A stretch of 43,461 nt of DNA from the IMG/VR virus record IMGVR_UViG_3300032675_000046, positions 1 through 43,461 of that record; one strand, written 5' to 3'. Position 1 is the first letter of the stretch; each line of letters begins with the position of its first letter. This document shows positions 2,391 to 36,810 of the stretch, in pieces. The notes under the pieces are model-generated. The model ran no database searches and was not told the origin of the DNA. It was given only the letters and a program-made list of their open reading frames with translations. The position numbers and the translations under genes were made by a program. This DNA comes from a virus.

Positions 2391-3944
2391 ATGCTTGGCT
2401 TCCAGCCTTTCTCAGCCAATCCAATTTCAGCAATAAATGGGGTTCTGGTATTTAATGTTTCAATTTCTGAAACTGGGAATGGTCAAGATTCAATACAAGT
2501 AAGAATACTTGTTAATGTTTCTACCCTTGAAAATGGACTGGCAGTAGATTCTGCTTCAGAAGTATTAATAGCGGCAAATAGTATTAGTGAAGCTGCATCA
2601 ATAGCAGATACAGTTTCTCAGTCAATGTTTGCGCCATTGACGATTGCTGAATTTGGTTCATTATTAGATTCTGTATCTAATTCAATGACAGCACCAGTTT
2701 CAATAACAGAAGTCGGAAATGCTTTAAGCACACAATCCGAATCAATGGCTGCAACAGTCAATATTTTAGAGGCTGGAAATGCTTTAGACGCTCAGTCTGA
2801 AATAATGTCAGCACCTACTAACATATCAGAAGTTGGTAATGCTCAAGACTCTCAGTCTGAAAATATGACTGCTGGGGTAACAGTATCAGAATCTAATTCT
2901 GCTCTTGATAGCGTTTCTGAAACAATGACAGCTTCAGTAGTTAATGTTGAAGCTATTAATGCTCAAGACATTCAATCTGAGCAAATGTCCTCGCCTGTAA
3001 GCATTAATGAATCAGGTAACGGCATAGATTCTCAATCGGAAACAATGGCTGCTCCAGTTAATATTCTTGAAGCTGGAAACGGACAAGATACTATTGCTGA
3101 AAATATGACTGCCTCGATTAATGTTTCTGAGGCAGGTAGTGCAGTTGAAATTCAATCAGAAGCAATGTCGGCACCAGTAAATAATACTGAAAGTGCAAAC
3201 GCATTAGATTCTCAATCAGAAAACATGAACTCTCCTGTTTACATAAATGAATCAGGAAATGCTCAAGACAGCCAATCTGAAACCATGTCGGCACCTGTAA
3301 GCATTACAGAGCTAGGGAATGCACAAGATACGGTATTAGAAAGTATGACTGCTTCAGTAGAAGTACTGGAATCAACAGTTGCCATTGATTCTGTATCAGA
3401 AAATCTAATTGCATCTTTGAATATTTTGGAGGCTGTATCTGCTTTAGATAGCTACTCTGAAAATATGTCTGCTTTAATAGAAATCATAGAAGTTGCAATA
3501 GCACAAGATACTATTACAGAACAAATGACAGCTTCTTTAGTAATTAATGAAATTGCTAATGTTTTAGACCATATAAATGCTAATATGACAGCATCTTTGG
3601 TTGTAGTTGAGAGTGCTGATGCACAAGATATACAATCAGTATTAATGACTGCTGCGGTACAAGTCGATGAAGCTGGCAATGCTTTAGACTCGACTGATGC
3701 GACAGATTATGTCATAGTAGCGATAGTAGAAAACGGTAACGCAGTTGACGTATATATAGTTAAGCCAATTTTTAGGCTTTCAGATTTTGTATGGCATTTA
3801 CTTCCTAGACCTGATTACTGGCAAGTAGCTCAAAGATCAGATGAATGGGAAATTTCACCAAGACAAGATTTTATAAAAGAGCCTAAACGATTAACTTATT
3901 GGAATGTTTCACCAAGACAAACACATTGGATAGTAAATGAATAG
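2391..3944 (+). CDS. Virion-associated protein of 22 tandem 20-residue repeats
   Basis: This 517-residue protein has a 20-residue leader, 22 near-continuous repeats of exactly 20 residues (residues 21-460), and a Trp/Arg-rich C-terminus (461-517) with repeats around YWQVAQRSDEW and YWNVSPRQ. The repeat consensus is APVxIxExGNAxDxQSExMx, with the E at position 7 and the D at 13 almost invariant. It is acidic with few Lys or Arg in the repeats, and has no signal peptide. The period suggests a beta-solenoid or long fibrous rod. It lies between fibre and capsid genes, so a head or fibre appendage is likely. I do not recognise a named family. Confidence 0.8.
   Translation: MLGFQPFSANPISAINGVLVFNVSISETGNGQDSIQVRILVNVSTLENGLAVDSASEVLIAANSISEAASIADTVSQSMFAPLTIAEFGSLLDSVSNSMTAPVSITEVGNALSTQSESMAATVNILEAGNALDAQSEIMSAPTNISEVGNAQDSQSENMTAGVTVSESNSALDSVSETMTASVVNVEAINAQDIQSEQMSSPVSINESGNGIDSQSETMAAPVNILEAGNGQDTIAENMTASINVSEAGSAVEIQSEAMSAPVNNTESANALDSQSENMNSPVYINESGNAQDSQSETMSAPVSITELGNAQDTVLESMTASVEVLESTVAIDSVSENLIASLNILEAVSALDSYSENMSALIEIIEVAIAQDTITEQMTASLVINEIANVLDHINANMTASLVVVESADAQDIQSVLMTAAVQVDEAGNALDSTDATDYVIVAIVENGNAVDVYIVKPIFRLSDFVWHLLPRPDYWQVAQRSDEWEISPRQDFIKEPKRLTYWNVSPRQTHWIVNE
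2451..3770 (+). repeat. 22 x 60-bp protein-coding tandem repeat
   Basis: The period is exactly 60 bases (20 codons) with no indel over 22 units. Units 5-15 match the consensus best; the first three and last two are the most diverged. Synonymous positions vary widely, showing an old array kept by selection on the protein rather than a recent slippage product. Confidence 0.85.
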
Positions 3945-32470: not shown

Positions 32471-32716
32471 ATGGAAAAGAAGCCAAAAGTTAATGCAGTT
32501 ACAAAAGTTCGAGCCAATTTTGGTTTGTCGAGTCAACCTTTATTACTTAGTCAAATTCAAGACTCAACAGGGCTAAAAGCTACTGAAGTATCAATGGCAC
32601 TTTCTTATTTATTAAAAAGAAGTGAACTTACAAGAGAATTAATTGCCAACCCAGCAGGAAAAGGCAGAGCTTTTATCTGGTCTTATTCATATATTGGAAA
32701 GGCTGTTAATGTCTGA
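32471..32716 (+). CDS. Winged-helix-like DNA-binding protein
   Basis: This 81-residue protein has SQIQDSTGLKATEVSMALSYLLKRSELTREL, a helix-turn-helix with a following wing-like strand (GKGRAFIWSYSYIGK). It lies directly after the terminator and just before the deazaguanine operon, overlapping it by 8 bases. It may be a regulator of the early promoters or of the operon. Confidence 0.65.
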   Translation: MEKKPKVNAVTKVRANFGLSSQPLLLSQIQDSTGLKATEVSMALSYLLKRSELTRELIANPAGKGRAFIWSYSYIGKAVNV

Positions 32717-33458
32717 AATCCATATTGAAATGATTGAAGTTGAATCTTTGATTCCTTATGTAAACAATGCTCGAACTCATAGTGATGAACAAATTGCTAA
32801 AATTGCAGCATCGATTAGAGAATTTGGATTTGCTGACCCTGTTGAGATAGATGAAGCCAATATGTTGCTGGCAGGGCATGGTCGGGTTATGGCGGCTAGA
32901 AAATTAGGTTTAAAAGAAATTCCAGCAGTAAGGCATGAAGGCTTAAGCGAAACGCAAAAAAAGGCTTACATTCTGGCAAACAATAAACTTGCTCTTGATG
33001 CTGGCTGGGATTTAGAGTTATTGGATTTAGAGCTTGAAGAATTAAAAGACCTTGATTTTGATTTAGATTTAACTGGTTTTGATGATGAAGACATTGATTC
33101 ATTGCAAACTGAAATCGAAGAATTGAACGAAGAACCAAAAGAAAAAGAATCGATCCTTGATAAGCTGGACATCTGCATTGATGAGCCACGAACAAAAGTA
33201 GAAAAAGGAGATCGTTATCAACTTGGCAAACACATTTTAATTTGCGCTGATGTTATTGCAGATTGGAGTTCTTGGGTTGATGAACTTAAAGATGAAGGAA
33301 CCTTGTTTATTCCTTATGCTGGTATATACGCTGCTCTTGCCAAGAAAGCAGAACAACATAGATTAGTCATAGTTCAGCCAGATACTTATATTGCATCTTT
33401 AATTGTGGATCGTTACCTTGATGTATATGGAGCAGATTCAGTTCTGAAACAACAATGA
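32709..33458 (+). CDS. ParB/Srx-like protein, DpdB-like candidate
   Basis: This 249-residue protein starts at 32709 (GGAAAGG 6 bases upstream; a possible earlier ATG lies in the previous gene). Residues 1-95 are a ParB/sulfiredoxin-like domain with IPYVNNARTHSDEQ and the nucleotide motif GHGR (56-59). Residues 105-145 are an acidic coiled linker. The C-terminal part (164-249) starts like a DNA methylase (KGDRYQLGKHILICAD) but has no DPPY catalytic motif. It overlaps the DpdA-like gene by 4 bases, as would suit a DpdB-like partner. Confidence 0.7.
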   Translation: MSEIHIEMIEVESLIPYVNNARTHSDEQIAKIAASIREFGFADPVEIDEANMLLAGHGRVMAARKLGLKEIPAVRHEGLSETQKKAYILANNKLALDAGWDLELLDLELEELKDLDFDLDLTGFDDEDIDSLQTEIEELNEEPKEKESILDKLDICIDEPRTKVEKGDRYQLGKHILICADVIADWSSWVDELKDEGTLFIPYAGIYAALAKKAEQHRLVIVQPDTYIASLIVDRYLDVYGADSVLKQQ

Positions 33459-34351
33459 ATCATACAGGTGGGAATTGGGACCCAAACGAAAAGAATGTTT
33501 ATTTCTTAGCTACTTCACCTGCATACTTTAAAGCCAATGAAGTAGAAAAGTTCTACGATCATATTCTTTGCGCTGTGAATGAAATTAAAAACGCTGATGA
33601 TGAGCAATACATTCTTGATTGCGTAAATCAAGGGAAAAAACTATTTATTGACTCAGGGGTTTTTAACTTAACAAACCAGCACGCTAGAAATAATAATATG
33701 ACAATGGATCAAGTGCTGGCAATGGCACCTGATGAGTTAGATGGTTTTGATGCTCTTTTTGATAAGTACACTCGAATTGTTAAAGAGATTGGTGAAAAGG
33801 CTTGGGGATATATTGAAATCGACCAAGGAGGCATGCACAATAAAATCAAAACTAGAGAACGATTACATGGTCTTGGATTCAACCCTATTCCCGTATATCA
33901 TCCTTTAGTTGATGGTTGGGATTACTTTGATTATTTGGCTGAACGATATGATCGTATTTGTCTTGGAAATATTGTTCAAGCTCAAAACGAAACTCGCAAG
34001 CGCATATTAGCAACAATGTGGGAACGTAAGCGTAAGTACCCTAACCTTTGGATTCATTGTTTGGGACTTACCCCTAATGAGCATTGTTTGGCTTTTCCAT
34101 TAAGCTCAGGAGATTCTTCTTCTTGGGTATCAACTGTTCGTTGGATGAGCATGTCCACAAGAGCTTGTTTAAAGGCTTGGGATGCAGTAGATGAAAAAGT
34201 ATTCCGTTATGACTTAAACAACCCAGATAAAGGGTATAAGAAAACGGTTCAAATGTCGGCTGCAAATTGTGCTGCTGATCTTATTAATTGGAGACAATAC
34301 ATCTCTGATGTTGAAAATAACCTTGATTGTGATTACAGGATGCCATTATGA
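33455..34351 (+). CDS. dpdA: DpdA-like DNA-guanine transglycosylase
   Basis: This 298-residue protein belongs to the TGT-like TIM-barrel group by pattern: FIDSGVFN (D66), GYIEIDQGG (E121, D123), FNPIPVYHPLVDG, CLGNIV (169-174), WIHCLGLTPNEH (199-210) and DSSSW (220-224). Phage DpdA proteins exchange guanine in DNA for a 7-deazaguanine base. Position in one overlapping operon with FolE, QueD and QueE makes a DNA rather than tRNA target likely. It shares 4 bases with each neighbour. Confidence 0.75.
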   Translation: MNHTGGNWDPNEKNVYFLATSPAYFKANEVEKFYDHILCAVNEIKNADDEQYILDCVNQGKKLFIDSGVFNLTNQHARNNNMTMDQVLAMAPDELDGFDALFDKYTRIVKEIGEKAWGYIEIDQGGMHNKIKTRERLHGLGFNPIPVYHPLVDGWDYFDYLAERYDRICLGNIVQAQNETRKRILATMWERKRKYPNLWIHCLGLTPNEHCLAFPLSSGDSSSWVSTVRWMSMSTRACLKAWDAVDEKVFRYDLNNPDKGYKKTVQMSAANCAADLINWRQYISDVENNLDCDYRMPL

Positions 34352-34710
34352 AACATTCTATTTTTGTAAAGTTTGCAGTGGATGGATTCCATTACTGGCA
34401 TGATGCACCAGAAGGAAGGAAGTACCTTTCTAACAACCATCGTCATCTATTTCATGTAGATATTCGGACTTATGTAGAGCATGATGATAGAGAAATAGAA
34501 TTCCATGATTTACTTGATTTTGCTAAATCTCAATTTCCCGGTGGTCACATGGGGGGAATGTCTTGTGAGATGATGGCTTCCAAGTTGGGTGTTAAACTAG
34601 CAGAACGATTTAAAAGAACATTCCTTGTAGAAGTATCTGAAGATGGGGAATGTGGAGCAAGTATTATTATTGAACACAAAGGCAATGATGAGCATAACAA
34701 CCAAAATTAA
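34348..34710 (+). CDS. Small QueD-like T-fold protein (DpdL candidate)
   Basis: This 120-residue protein has HYWHDAPEGRKYLSNNHRHLFHVDI, EHDDREIEFHDLLDF, GGHMGGMSCEMMASKLG and LVEVSEDGECGASI. The clustered histidines (HRHLFH) and strand-helix order resemble a cut-down QueD/PTPS T-fold. It overlaps the DpdA-like gene by 4 bases. A role in altering carboxy-deazaguanine, such as decarboxylation, is known for some phage enzymes near DpdA; whether this is one of them I cannot confirm. Confidence 0.58.
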   Translation: MKHSIFVKFAVDGFHYWHDAPEGRKYLSNNHRHLFHVDIRTYVEHDDREIEFHDLLDFAKSQFPGGHMGGMSCEMMASKLGVKLAERFKRTFLVEVSEDGECGASIIIEHKGNDEHNNQN

Positions 34711-35347
34711 AGAACGAATTAAGGCTGCTGGTAAGACTTTCTTTGCCAATGATAATATTTCTGACTTCCTTGAGCCAAACGATCTAGAAGCTATCCAAGC
34801 CGAAGTTCAAGTTCAGATGCAGGGAGTATTAGAAAGTTTAATTATTGATACTGAGAACGACCACAATACGCAGGAAACTGCTAAAAGAGTGGCTAAGATG
34901 TTTGTTCAAGAAGTATTTAAAGGTCGCTATGATCCAATGCCTAAAGTTACGGACTTCCCTAATGCTAAACACCTTGATGAAATTTATACAATCGGTCCTA
35001 TCACCGTTAGAAGTGCTTGCTCGCATCATCTTGTTCCTATTACTGGGCGTTGTTGGATTGGCATACTTCCTTCTGATCGAGTTATCGGTATTAGTAAGTT
35101 TGTTCGTCTTACAAATTGGGTTATGGGTCGCCCTCAAATTCAAGAGGAAGCCACAATCCAACTTGCAGACATCATTGAAGAAAAAATAAAGCCTAAAGGT
35201 ATTGCTGTTGTAGTAGAGGCTACTCATCAATGTATGACTTGGCGTGGAGTGCGTGAGCATGATACAAAAATGACTACTTCTGTTATGCGTGGGTTCTTTA
35301 GGGACAACTCAGATGCAAGAGCAGAGTTTTTCAGGTTAATTAAATGA
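34688..35347 (+). CDS. folE: GTP cyclohydrolase I
   Basis: This 219-residue protein starts at 34688 by the AAAGG site 5 bases upstream; in-frame ATGs at 34643 and 34685 are less likely. FolE signatures are complete: CSHHLVPITGR (zinc C111, H114), GISKFVRLTNW and HQCMTWRGVREHD (C182). It makes dihydroneopterin triphosphate from GTP, the first step of 7-deazaguanine synthesis. The start lies 23 bases inside the upstream gene. Confidence 0.9.
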   Translation: MSITTKIKERIKAAGKTFFANDNISDFLEPNDLEAIQAEVQVQMQGVLESLIIDTENDHNTQETAKRVAKMFVQEVFKGRYDPMPKVTDFPNAKHLDEIYTIGPITVRSACSHHLVPITGRCWIGILPSDRVIGISKFVRLTNWVMGRPQIQEEATIQLADIIEEKIKPKGIAVVVEATHQCMTWRGVREHDTKMTTSVMRGFFRDNSDARAEFFRLIK

Positions 35348-35790
35348 CATTTCGCAGCACTAAGACTTATGGGCACGACTTAGGTTTTAGTTGTGCTTTT
35401 CGTCAATGGAAAGCCGAATCTCATTGCCGCTTTGTTCACGGGTACGCCTTGGCGTTTCGATTTGAATTTGAGGCTGATGAACTTGATGTTCGTAACTGGG
35501 TAGTAGATTTTGGGGGACTTAAAGACCTCAAAGCTATGCTTGAAGATACTTTTGATCATAAGCTGGTGGCCGCTTCAGATGATCCCCATATTGAATACTT
35601 CCGACAAGGGCATAAATTAGGCGTTCTAGACCTTGTTGAAGTTGATGCAGGGGGTTGTGAGAAGTTTGCCGAATTGGTCTATGAGTGCGCTGAACAATGG
35701 CTTGCTGACGCTGGTTTTGCTCCTAGATGTAGCTTGGTGTCAGTAGAAGTTAAAGAACATGGTGCTAATTCAGCTATTTATTCAAAATGA
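35344..35790 (+). CDS. queD: 6-carboxytetrahydropterin synthase (QueD)
   Basis: This 148-residue protein has YGHDLGFSCAFRQWKAESHCRFVHGYALAFRF, WVVDFGGLKDLKAMLEDTFDHKLV and SVEVKEHGANSAI, the PTPS/QueD pattern. The catalytic Cys is present (C28), but two of the three zinc His of E. coli QueD are replaced (F19 and Y34, with only H32 kept); H11 or H27 may serve instead. It makes CPH4 from the FolE product. ATGA overlaps on both sides. Confidence 0.85.
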   Translation: MTFRSTKTYGHDLGFSCAFRQWKAESHCRFVHGYALAFRFEFEADELDVRNWVVDFGGLKDLKAMLEDTFDHKLVAASDDPHIEYFRQGHKLGVLDLVEVDAGGCEKFAELVYECAEQWLADAGFAPRCSLVSVEVKEHGANSAIYSK

Positions 35791-36170
35791 ATATAAGATA
35801 TATTTCTTGGGATGAGTTCGATGAAGCTCTTGATAAGTTTCCTATTCCTGTATGCGATAGTTTTTATCCTATCCCTAGAGGGGGAATGGTACTTGCCGTT
35901 GCTCTTTCTCACCGTTTTAATAAACCGATAGTTCACCTGCCAACAAAGATGTCTATTATTGTTGATGACATTGCCGATAGCGGCAAGACATTGCAAAAAG
36001 TTAGACTTAAATATCCATACCCTGCTTATGTATTGGCTCGTAGATATACTTGCAAGCAAAATGCTATTACTACGGCACTCGAAATTTCTAATGATGATTG
36101 GCTAGTATTTCCTTGGGAAAACAAACAAAAGGCAAAAGAAGATTATGAATCATACATATCCCGTAAATGA
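35787..36170 (+). CDS. Phosphoribosyltransferase
   Basis: This 127-residue type I phosphoribosyltransferase has the PRPP loop IIVDDIADSGKT (57-68) and the N-terminal YPIPRGGMVLAVALSHRF. It is short for the family, with a minimal hood. It overlaps QueD by 4 bases and QueE by 26. In a base-exchange operon it could salvage guanine released by DpdA, or make a nucleotide from a deazaguanine base. Confidence 0.78.
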   Translation: MNIRYISWDEFDEALDKFPIPVCDSFYPIPRGGMVLAVALSHRFNKPIVHLPTKMSIIVDDIADSGKTLQKVRLKYPYPAYVLARRYTCKQNAITTALEISNDDWLVFPWENKQKAKEDYESYISRK

Positions 36171-36810
36171 AGTTTTCGAATCAATTCAAGGTGAAGCTAC
36201 ATTTACTGGTACGCCTTCTGTTTTTATAAGACTTCAAGGCTGCCCCGTTGGGTGTCATTGGTGCGATACAAAGCACACTTGGGAAACTAGCGCAAAAGTT
36301 ATTCCAATCGTAAGCATGTTGAAAAAAGTACAAGATGAAGAATCGGCTGCAACTATGTCTGTCGCTGACATTCTAGATATGTTAAAGTCTTTTCATGCTC
36401 AACATATCGTCTTGACAGGGGGAGAACCTTGTCTATACGATTTGATTCCGTTGACTAATGCCTTGATAGATAAGGGCTATTCAGTTCAAATTGAAACAAG
36501 CGGAACTTCTGATATTAAATGCAACCCTCAAACATTTATTACAGTCAGTCCTAAACTTGATATGGCTGGAGGCTTAGAAGTATTGCATGGCAACTACTTA
36601 CTAGCAGATGAAATTAAATACCCAGTAGGTAAGTTAGCTGATGTAGAAAAGCTAAAAGAAAGAGTATTGCCTTACGCTGGAAAAAATCCTAGCGTCTGGC
36701 TTCAACCTTTAAGCCAAAACCAAAAGTCCACAAATATCTGTATAGAGCAAGCAACTTTAAACGGATGGAAAATTTCCATTCAGACTCATAAGTTTTTAGG
36801 AGTTCGGTAG
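36145..36810 (+). CDS. queE: 7-carboxy-7-deazaguanine synthase (radical SAM QueE)
   Basis: This 221-residue protein has the QueE pattern VNEVFESIQGEA, GTPSVFIRLQGCPVGCHWCDT (cluster Cys C33, C37, C40), LTGGEPCLY, QIETSGT and SPKLDM. It turns CPH4 into 7-carboxy-7-deazaguanine. It is the last gene of the operon; no QueC follows. A promoter follows within 35 bases. Confidence 0.9.
   Translation: MNHTYPVNEVFESIQGEATFTGTPSVFIRLQGCPVGCHWCDTKHTWETSAKVIPIVSMLKKVQDEESAATMSVADILDMLKSFHAQHIVLTGGEPCLYDLIPLTNALIDKGYSVQIETSGTSDIKCNPQTFITVSPKLDMAGGLEVLHGNYLLADEIKYPVGKLADVEKLKERVLPYAGKNPSVWLQPLSQNQKSTNICIEQATLNGWKISIQTHKFLGVR

Follow-up and report, generated by a model that had tools for sequence, protein, structure and literature searches.

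We analysed the 43,461-base IMG/VR virus record IMGVR_UViG_3300032675_000046 (hereafter the window), a linear and possibly incomplete contig that codes for a contractile-tailed phage (tail sheath, baseplate, portal, terminase, Erf-like, Gam-like, RusA and DnaB-like helicase proteins), and describe in it a plus-strand operon at 32709-36810 that very probably swaps some guanines of the phage DNA for a 7-deazaguanine base. Its seven genes encode, in order, a ParB-like protein, a DpdA-like transglycosylase, a small QueD-like protein (QL), FolE, QueD, a phosphoribosyltransferase (PRT) and QueE. As an earlier note on this DNA had described, most of these open reading frames (ORFs) overlap by 4 bases: the overlap is exactly that at four of the six junctions (ParB/DpdA, DpdA/QL, FolE/QueD and QueD/PRT), and about 26 bases at QL/FolE (assuming a FolE start at 34685) and PRT/QueE. 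The arrangement is not a chance one, since DpdA homologues are found at 40 viral loci and 11 loci in contigs of bacteria or metagenome-assembled genomes (MAGs), with a ParB gene directly upstream in every locus whose contig extends there. The genome loci belong to Streptomyces, Kitasatospora, Amycolatopsis, Pseudonocardia, Bradyrhizobium, an Oscillatoriales MAG and a gammaproteobacterial MAG; the Amycolatopsis copy (L058) precedes apparent terminase, portal and capsid genes and is therefore taken as a prophage. QL lies next to or near DpdA in most relatives, and FolE, QueD and QueE come after in variable order.

Neither Pfam nor NCBIfam recognises DpdA or QL. The DpdA-like protein matches phrog_887, annotated as queuine tRNA-ribosyltransferase (1.6e-22), and because a profile made from the DpdA alignment found only chance matches among PDB sequences, we relied on fold comparison, where the AlphaFold model (predicted local distance difference test score, pLDDT, 88.6) finds its best PDB matches in tRNA-guanine transglycosylase (TGT; E 9e-6, probability 1.00), at modest TM-scores of about 0.45, as expected of a far relative. 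Invariant alignment columns hold D66-S-G, D123, H149, H201 and D220-S-S, and the DSG, Asp, His and DSS motifs are common to the window protein, phage 9g DpdA1 and Vibrio nt-1 DpdA2, TGT-family DNA transglycosylases like it. A TGT-superfamily transglycosylase with DpdA motifs thus stands beside FolE, QueD and QueE, and gene families, fold and residues together bear out the earlier proposal of a DpdA-type DNA-modification operon that ends at or beyond 7-carboxy-7-deazaguanine (CDG). In a tree with 9g-type DpdA1 and nt-1-type DpdA2, which has several long reference branches and leaves out DpdA3 and DpdA4 references, the window family groups with neither and forms its own clade, the DpdA1 group sitting on a long branch (support 99/99). 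Queried by tblastn with the window DpdA, the INPHARED phages yielded nothing at E 1e-5 and only partial matches of 20-30% at E <=10. By these sequence comparisons, the window DpdA belongs to a clade that stands well apart and has no close kin in isolate phages. In the Streptomyces and Kitasatospora loci (L054-L057), a single ParB gene is followed by a tandem pair of diverged DpdA genes.

The first product of the operon had been called ParB/Srx-like. Its ParB part is confirmed by ParB_N (PF02195, 2e-6) and by a fold match of its model to ParB/Noc; what had gone unnoticed is a fusion to a decayed DNA methyltransferase. The protein matches phrog_498 (DNA methyltransferase, 3e-57) and residues 5-183 of the 436-position PADLOC model of Type II methyltransferases (8.9e-42). 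The C-terminal part alone has no good PHROG match, so its origin was traced by alignment with intact ParB-methyltransferases. Over the ParB domain, linker and methyltransferase start, L017, a member of the family, shares 45-50% identity with the phage ParB-adenine methyltransferase fusions of AcaML1 and pOW20-A, whereas the middle of the enzyme, including the target-recognition region and the S-adenosylmethionine (SAM) motif, is deleted from the window family, and PYxGP stands in place of the DPPY-type motif. Neither the DPPY-type motif IV nor the FxGxG motif I occurs in any of the 23 aligned members, and the methyltransferase end is kept (QPDxYIAGHILDRYEDIHG, resembling ELDPxYxDVIIxRWQDFTG), the remnant being modelled at pLDDT ~95. 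Judged by alignment, the protein is a ParB-DNA-methyltransferase fusion with its catalytic motifs deleted. Family-wide conservation of a dead methyltransferase, fused to ParB and encoded beside DpdA, suggests DNA targeting or base presentation, and a subunit with either role is plausible. ParB proteins also adjoin DpdA in Opia, Typha and phiFN37, so the partnership is older and wider than the window family. To our knowledge, how DpdA selects guanines for replacement is unsettled, and the ParB-like protein is a candidate for a dedicated DNA-targeting partner.

The supply of the base can be read from FolE (PF01227, 164 bits; TIGR00063, 166 bits), QueD (PF01242, 58 bits, 1.2e-15; phrog_2389, 2.9e-42) and QueE (TIGR04322, 263 bits against an equivalog cut-off of 200), which by family would convert GTP to CDG. 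The window QueD keeps the Cys and Asp-His residues, and two of its three zinc histidines are replaced in the alignment. We considered a dead enzyme and dropped the idea, because Me-ZS1 and N17 carry the same variant together with QueC, and near relatives have canonical QueD in its place. This 'HGY' variant (AFRQW...HC..xHGY), which swaps with the canonical form between close relatives, is found in the window (35344-35790), L041, L042, L044, L070 and L072. PRT resembles xanthine phosphoribosyltransferase (NF006613, 2.6e-9; PF00156, 2.5e-5; each under the model cut-off) and recurs in the clusters of relatives, among them Synechococcus phage BUCT-ZZ01, where it shares a cluster with QL. As DpdA frees one guanine per exchange, salvage to GMP is plausible, and PRT might recycle the freed base in this way.

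The remaining gene, QL, matches phrog_17812, a family with no assigned function (2.9e-21). Seventeen residues are fully invariant in a 20-member alignment, which keeps H15, H31, R32, H33, H45, R48, E51, S72-C73-E74, E98, D99, E101 and L27 throughout; H15, H31 and H33 correspond to the PTPS zinc-ligand positions, leaving the zinc-His set intact, and the base-anchoring glutamate is also kept. For catalysis, QueD relies on an Asp-His pair and on a Cys located four residues ahead of the HxH zinc motif. Leu27 occupies the Cys position in all 20 QL sequences and the Asp-His pair is absent from the alignment, which rules out a second QueD. QL is also encoded by Cellulophaga phiST, Acidovorax ACP17, Xanthomonas phage X1, Synechococcus BUCT-ZZ01, Faecalibacterium phage Roos and D479. 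In Roos (L043:5168-7899), ParB, QL, DpdA and a YhhQ-like queuosine-precursor transporter stand in a row, with the appearance of a salvage version. QL lies near a deoxynucleoside monophosphate kinase in D479 (L042:5418-6799) and near an ATPase and a MazG-like gene in phiST (L048:6001-8097); in these two phages, with no DpdA recognised near QL, the base may be used at the nucleotide level.

The position of QL is telling. A six-frame profile search for QueC (PF06508) and QueF (PF14489), which the earlier note had proposed, found neither in the 43.5-kb record, which may be incomplete, and no DpdC-type gene was recognised, as that note had stated. QL sits directly after dpdA, the QueC position of sister operons: one relative (L062) has queC in exactly this slot, and Mycobacterium phage Opia (of the same species as Rosebush) has the order ParB, DpdA, QueC, QueD. 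Among ParB-partnered DpdA1-like phages, Opia carries queC and Roos QL beside dpdA, and the exchange seems to have occurred more than once, because the same swap is seen in the DpdA2 lineage, where nt-1 has queC directly after dpdA2 and X1 has QL there. In ACP17, QL is flanked by a long hypothetical gene on one side and queE on the other. The two genes also exclude each other. When whole records of the 40 DpdA relatives were scanned for QueC, G034 alone was positive (E 6e-54); this 51-kb record lacks QL, the only one above 40 kb in the window DpdA family to do so, and QL is present without QueC in the window and in G012, G018, G019, G021, G022, G024, G026, G027, G028, G033 and G038, all above 40 kb. 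A canonical QueC is lacking in all 11 distinct isolate phages that encode QL, as against a full QueC in eight of 10 examined DpdA1/DpdA2 reference phages without QL (the exceptions being Typha and phiFN37, whose stretch read shows a transporter but no synthesis genes). The exclusion gives a Fisher p of 2e-4 over records that are related and not randomly drawn. Two weak QueC-like matches in QL phages were not counted as canonical: one in X1, which we read as an NAD-synthetase-like protein, and a gene of D479 with a degenerate P-loop and zinc cysteines present.

These data point to QL as a substitute for QueC that most likely acts on CDG, and we consider it probable that the operon partially replaces guanine with a 7-deazaguanine base as a defence against host restriction, QL most likely turning CDG into 7-deazaguanine and DpdA inserting the product. 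QL would bind CDG in a PTPS-like pocket, with the zinc site and without the catalytic Cys, Asp and His of QueD, and most likely remove the 7-carboxylate by zinc-assisted decarboxylation. DpdA would then exchange the resulting 7-deazaguanine for a DNA guanine through a TGT-type covalent Asp intermediate, a step suggested by its fold and residues, and the ParB/pseudo-methyltransferase protein would probably bring it to DNA or to certain sites, the modified base serving as a shield against host restriction. Several points weigh against this scheme. QL is tied to the QueD fold by its arrangement of zinc histidines and by a profile match that is weak (E 0.45 against PDB 2dj6, the hypothetical protein PH0634); no FolE, QueD or QueE was found in the Roos stretch read, despite QL, DpdA and the YhhQ-like transporter, so Roos QL must use an imported or host-made base; many relatives are fragments; and a third, unrelated small protein follows dpdA in L037, L032 and Typha, so that a missing QueC is not enough to imply QL. 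That third family, possibly another CDG-processing enzyme, has HSHF/HFHT and GVPDxIGHxDG motifs and occurs in operons free of both QueC and QL (L032:4838-5233, L037:1669-2061 and L078:2043-2468, the last being Typha gp4). Tentatively, and with rather less conviction than the replacement of QueC, we picture a sequence-reading DNA methyltransferase, fused to ParB, that lost catalysis and was kept as a targeting or base-flipping subunit of the base-exchange enzyme. This would make the family a new DpdA subfamily with two components, in which an exchangeable gene slot (QueC, QL or the third small protein) determines the modified base.

The earlier note had left the product as CDG or a derivative made by the small QueD-like or another operon protein, and the position and exclusion of QL favour a product of QL. 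Insertion of CDG itself (dCDG), with QL as a CDG carrier or pterin-handling accessory, ranks second and is rather unlikely: FolE, QueD and QueE suffice to make CDG (PMC13329287), but QL occupies the slot of a CDG-consuming enzyme and its 17 invariant residues with the intact zinc-His set suggest catalysis. Because QL holds the QueC position and is exclusive with QueC, the final base is more likely its product than CDG. That this product is some other base derived from CDG or CPH4, such as an amide or another 7-substituent, we judge improbable. The newly invariant R32, H45, R48, E51 and S72-C73-E74 could bind the carboxylate or serve other chemistry, and Roos pairs QL with a transporter; however, no ATP-binding motif was seen in QL, making QueC-like amidation unlikely, and no second substrate enzyme is conserved alongside it.

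Completion of the pathway by a host QueC, with insertion of preQ0 or a derivative, was the proviso attached to the CDG prediction. Bradyrhizobium and the Oscillatoriales MAG, hosts of some relatives, do encode QueC. Yet full-length QueC is absent from the eight actinobacterial genomes that carry QL prophages with the same operon, where only ATP-loop matches of ~60 residues were found (E near 1e-4), so the pathway there must end without QueC and without help from the host, and QL and QueC are mutually exclusive within the phages themselves. The proviso therefore falls for relatives in actinobacterial hosts and may still apply to those in Bradyrhizobium and the Oscillatoriales MAG and to the window phage, for which we hold it quite improbable. 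Least probable by far is a tRNA target of queuosine-like type: membership of DpdA in the TGT superfamily would fit it, but the record has no QueF and no QueA or QueG gene was seen, the ParB/methyltransferase partner is DNA-directed, and DSSSW-type residues match DpdA of phage 9g, an enzyme that acts on DNA and did not complement tgt (PMC6884629).

The closest measured operon of the same order is that of Rosebush, whose DNA carries dPreQ0 at ~28% of Gs (PMC6884629); full replacement is not indicated, contrary to one of the two options in the earlier note, exchange of most phage G. Like the window, the Rosebush type (Opia) has ParB and DpdA followed directly by a CDG-processing gene, and also QueD, in a mycobacterial host without a preQ0 pathway; it differs in having QueC and not QL, a ParB without recognisable methyltransferase remnant and an only distantly related DpdA. 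Cui et al. reportedly described dCDG and dDG in phage DNA in 2023 and named a CDG decarboxylase DpdL, to which QL may correspond. Those phages presumably share with the window a pathway that leaves CDG without QueC and includes one additional small protein. The window lacks the phage-encoded QueC (PF06508) that the dPreQ0 branch would have, and in QL it has a pathway-adjacent gene in place of QueC, as would be expected of the DpdL branch; ACP17 and X1 carry DpdA2-type genes, unlike the window clade. A pathway without QueC is not in itself a new idea, with Mycobacterium phage Bipper as a precedent (PMC6884629). What is new here is the separate DpdA clade and its ParB-decayed-methyltransferase partner, dCDG, dDG and DpdL having reportedly been published already. 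Slot exchange, QueC exclusion and QueC-less hosts together offer a genetic argument for CDG as the substrate of the unannotated family phrog_17812, which in turn predicts the base in many phages. Plain 7-deazaguanine, the predicted base, would keep Watson-Crick pairing but be without N7, which many restriction enzymes contact in the major groove.

Table 1. Genes of the operon and its upstream neighbour in the window.
Product	Position	Strand	Evidence
Function unassigned, 81 aa, directly upstream of the ParB gene	32471..32716	+	relatives
ParB domain fused to catalytically decayed DNA methyltransferase, 249 aa	32709..33458	+	PF02195, PADLOC, phrog_498, fold, alignment
DpdA-like DNA guanine transglycosylase (predicted), 298 aa	33455..34351	+	phrog_887, AlphaFold model, conserved residues, tree
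QL, small QueD/PTPS-like protein in QueC slot, predicted CDG decarboxylase, 120 aa	34348..34710	+	phrog_17812, invariant residues
FolE, GTP cyclohydrolase I	34685..35347	+	PF01227, TIGR00063; ORF opens 34643, ATGs 34685/34688
QueD-type 6-carboxytetrahydropterin synthase, phage 'HGY' variant	35344..35790	+	PF01242, phrog_2389, alignment
Xanthine-guanine-type phosphoribosyltransferase	35787..36170	+	NF006613, PF00156 (both sub-cut-off), PRPP motif VDDIADSGKT
QueE, 7-carboxy-7-deazaguanine synthase (radical SAM)	36145..36810	+	TIGR04322

The 81-aa gene is kept 5' of ParB in the close relatives L003, L006, L008-L012, L014 and L015 and may be the operon's opening gene. Two ORFs of more than 500 aa at the start of the record (214-1743 and 2391-3944) match nothing in Pfam and almost nothing in PHROGs. 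In L055 (4100-6461), what appear to be a DGQHR/DndB-like gene and one for a DndA-like cysteine desulfurase lie directly upstream of the deazaguanine cluster, so that phosphorothioation and deazaguanine genes adjoin.

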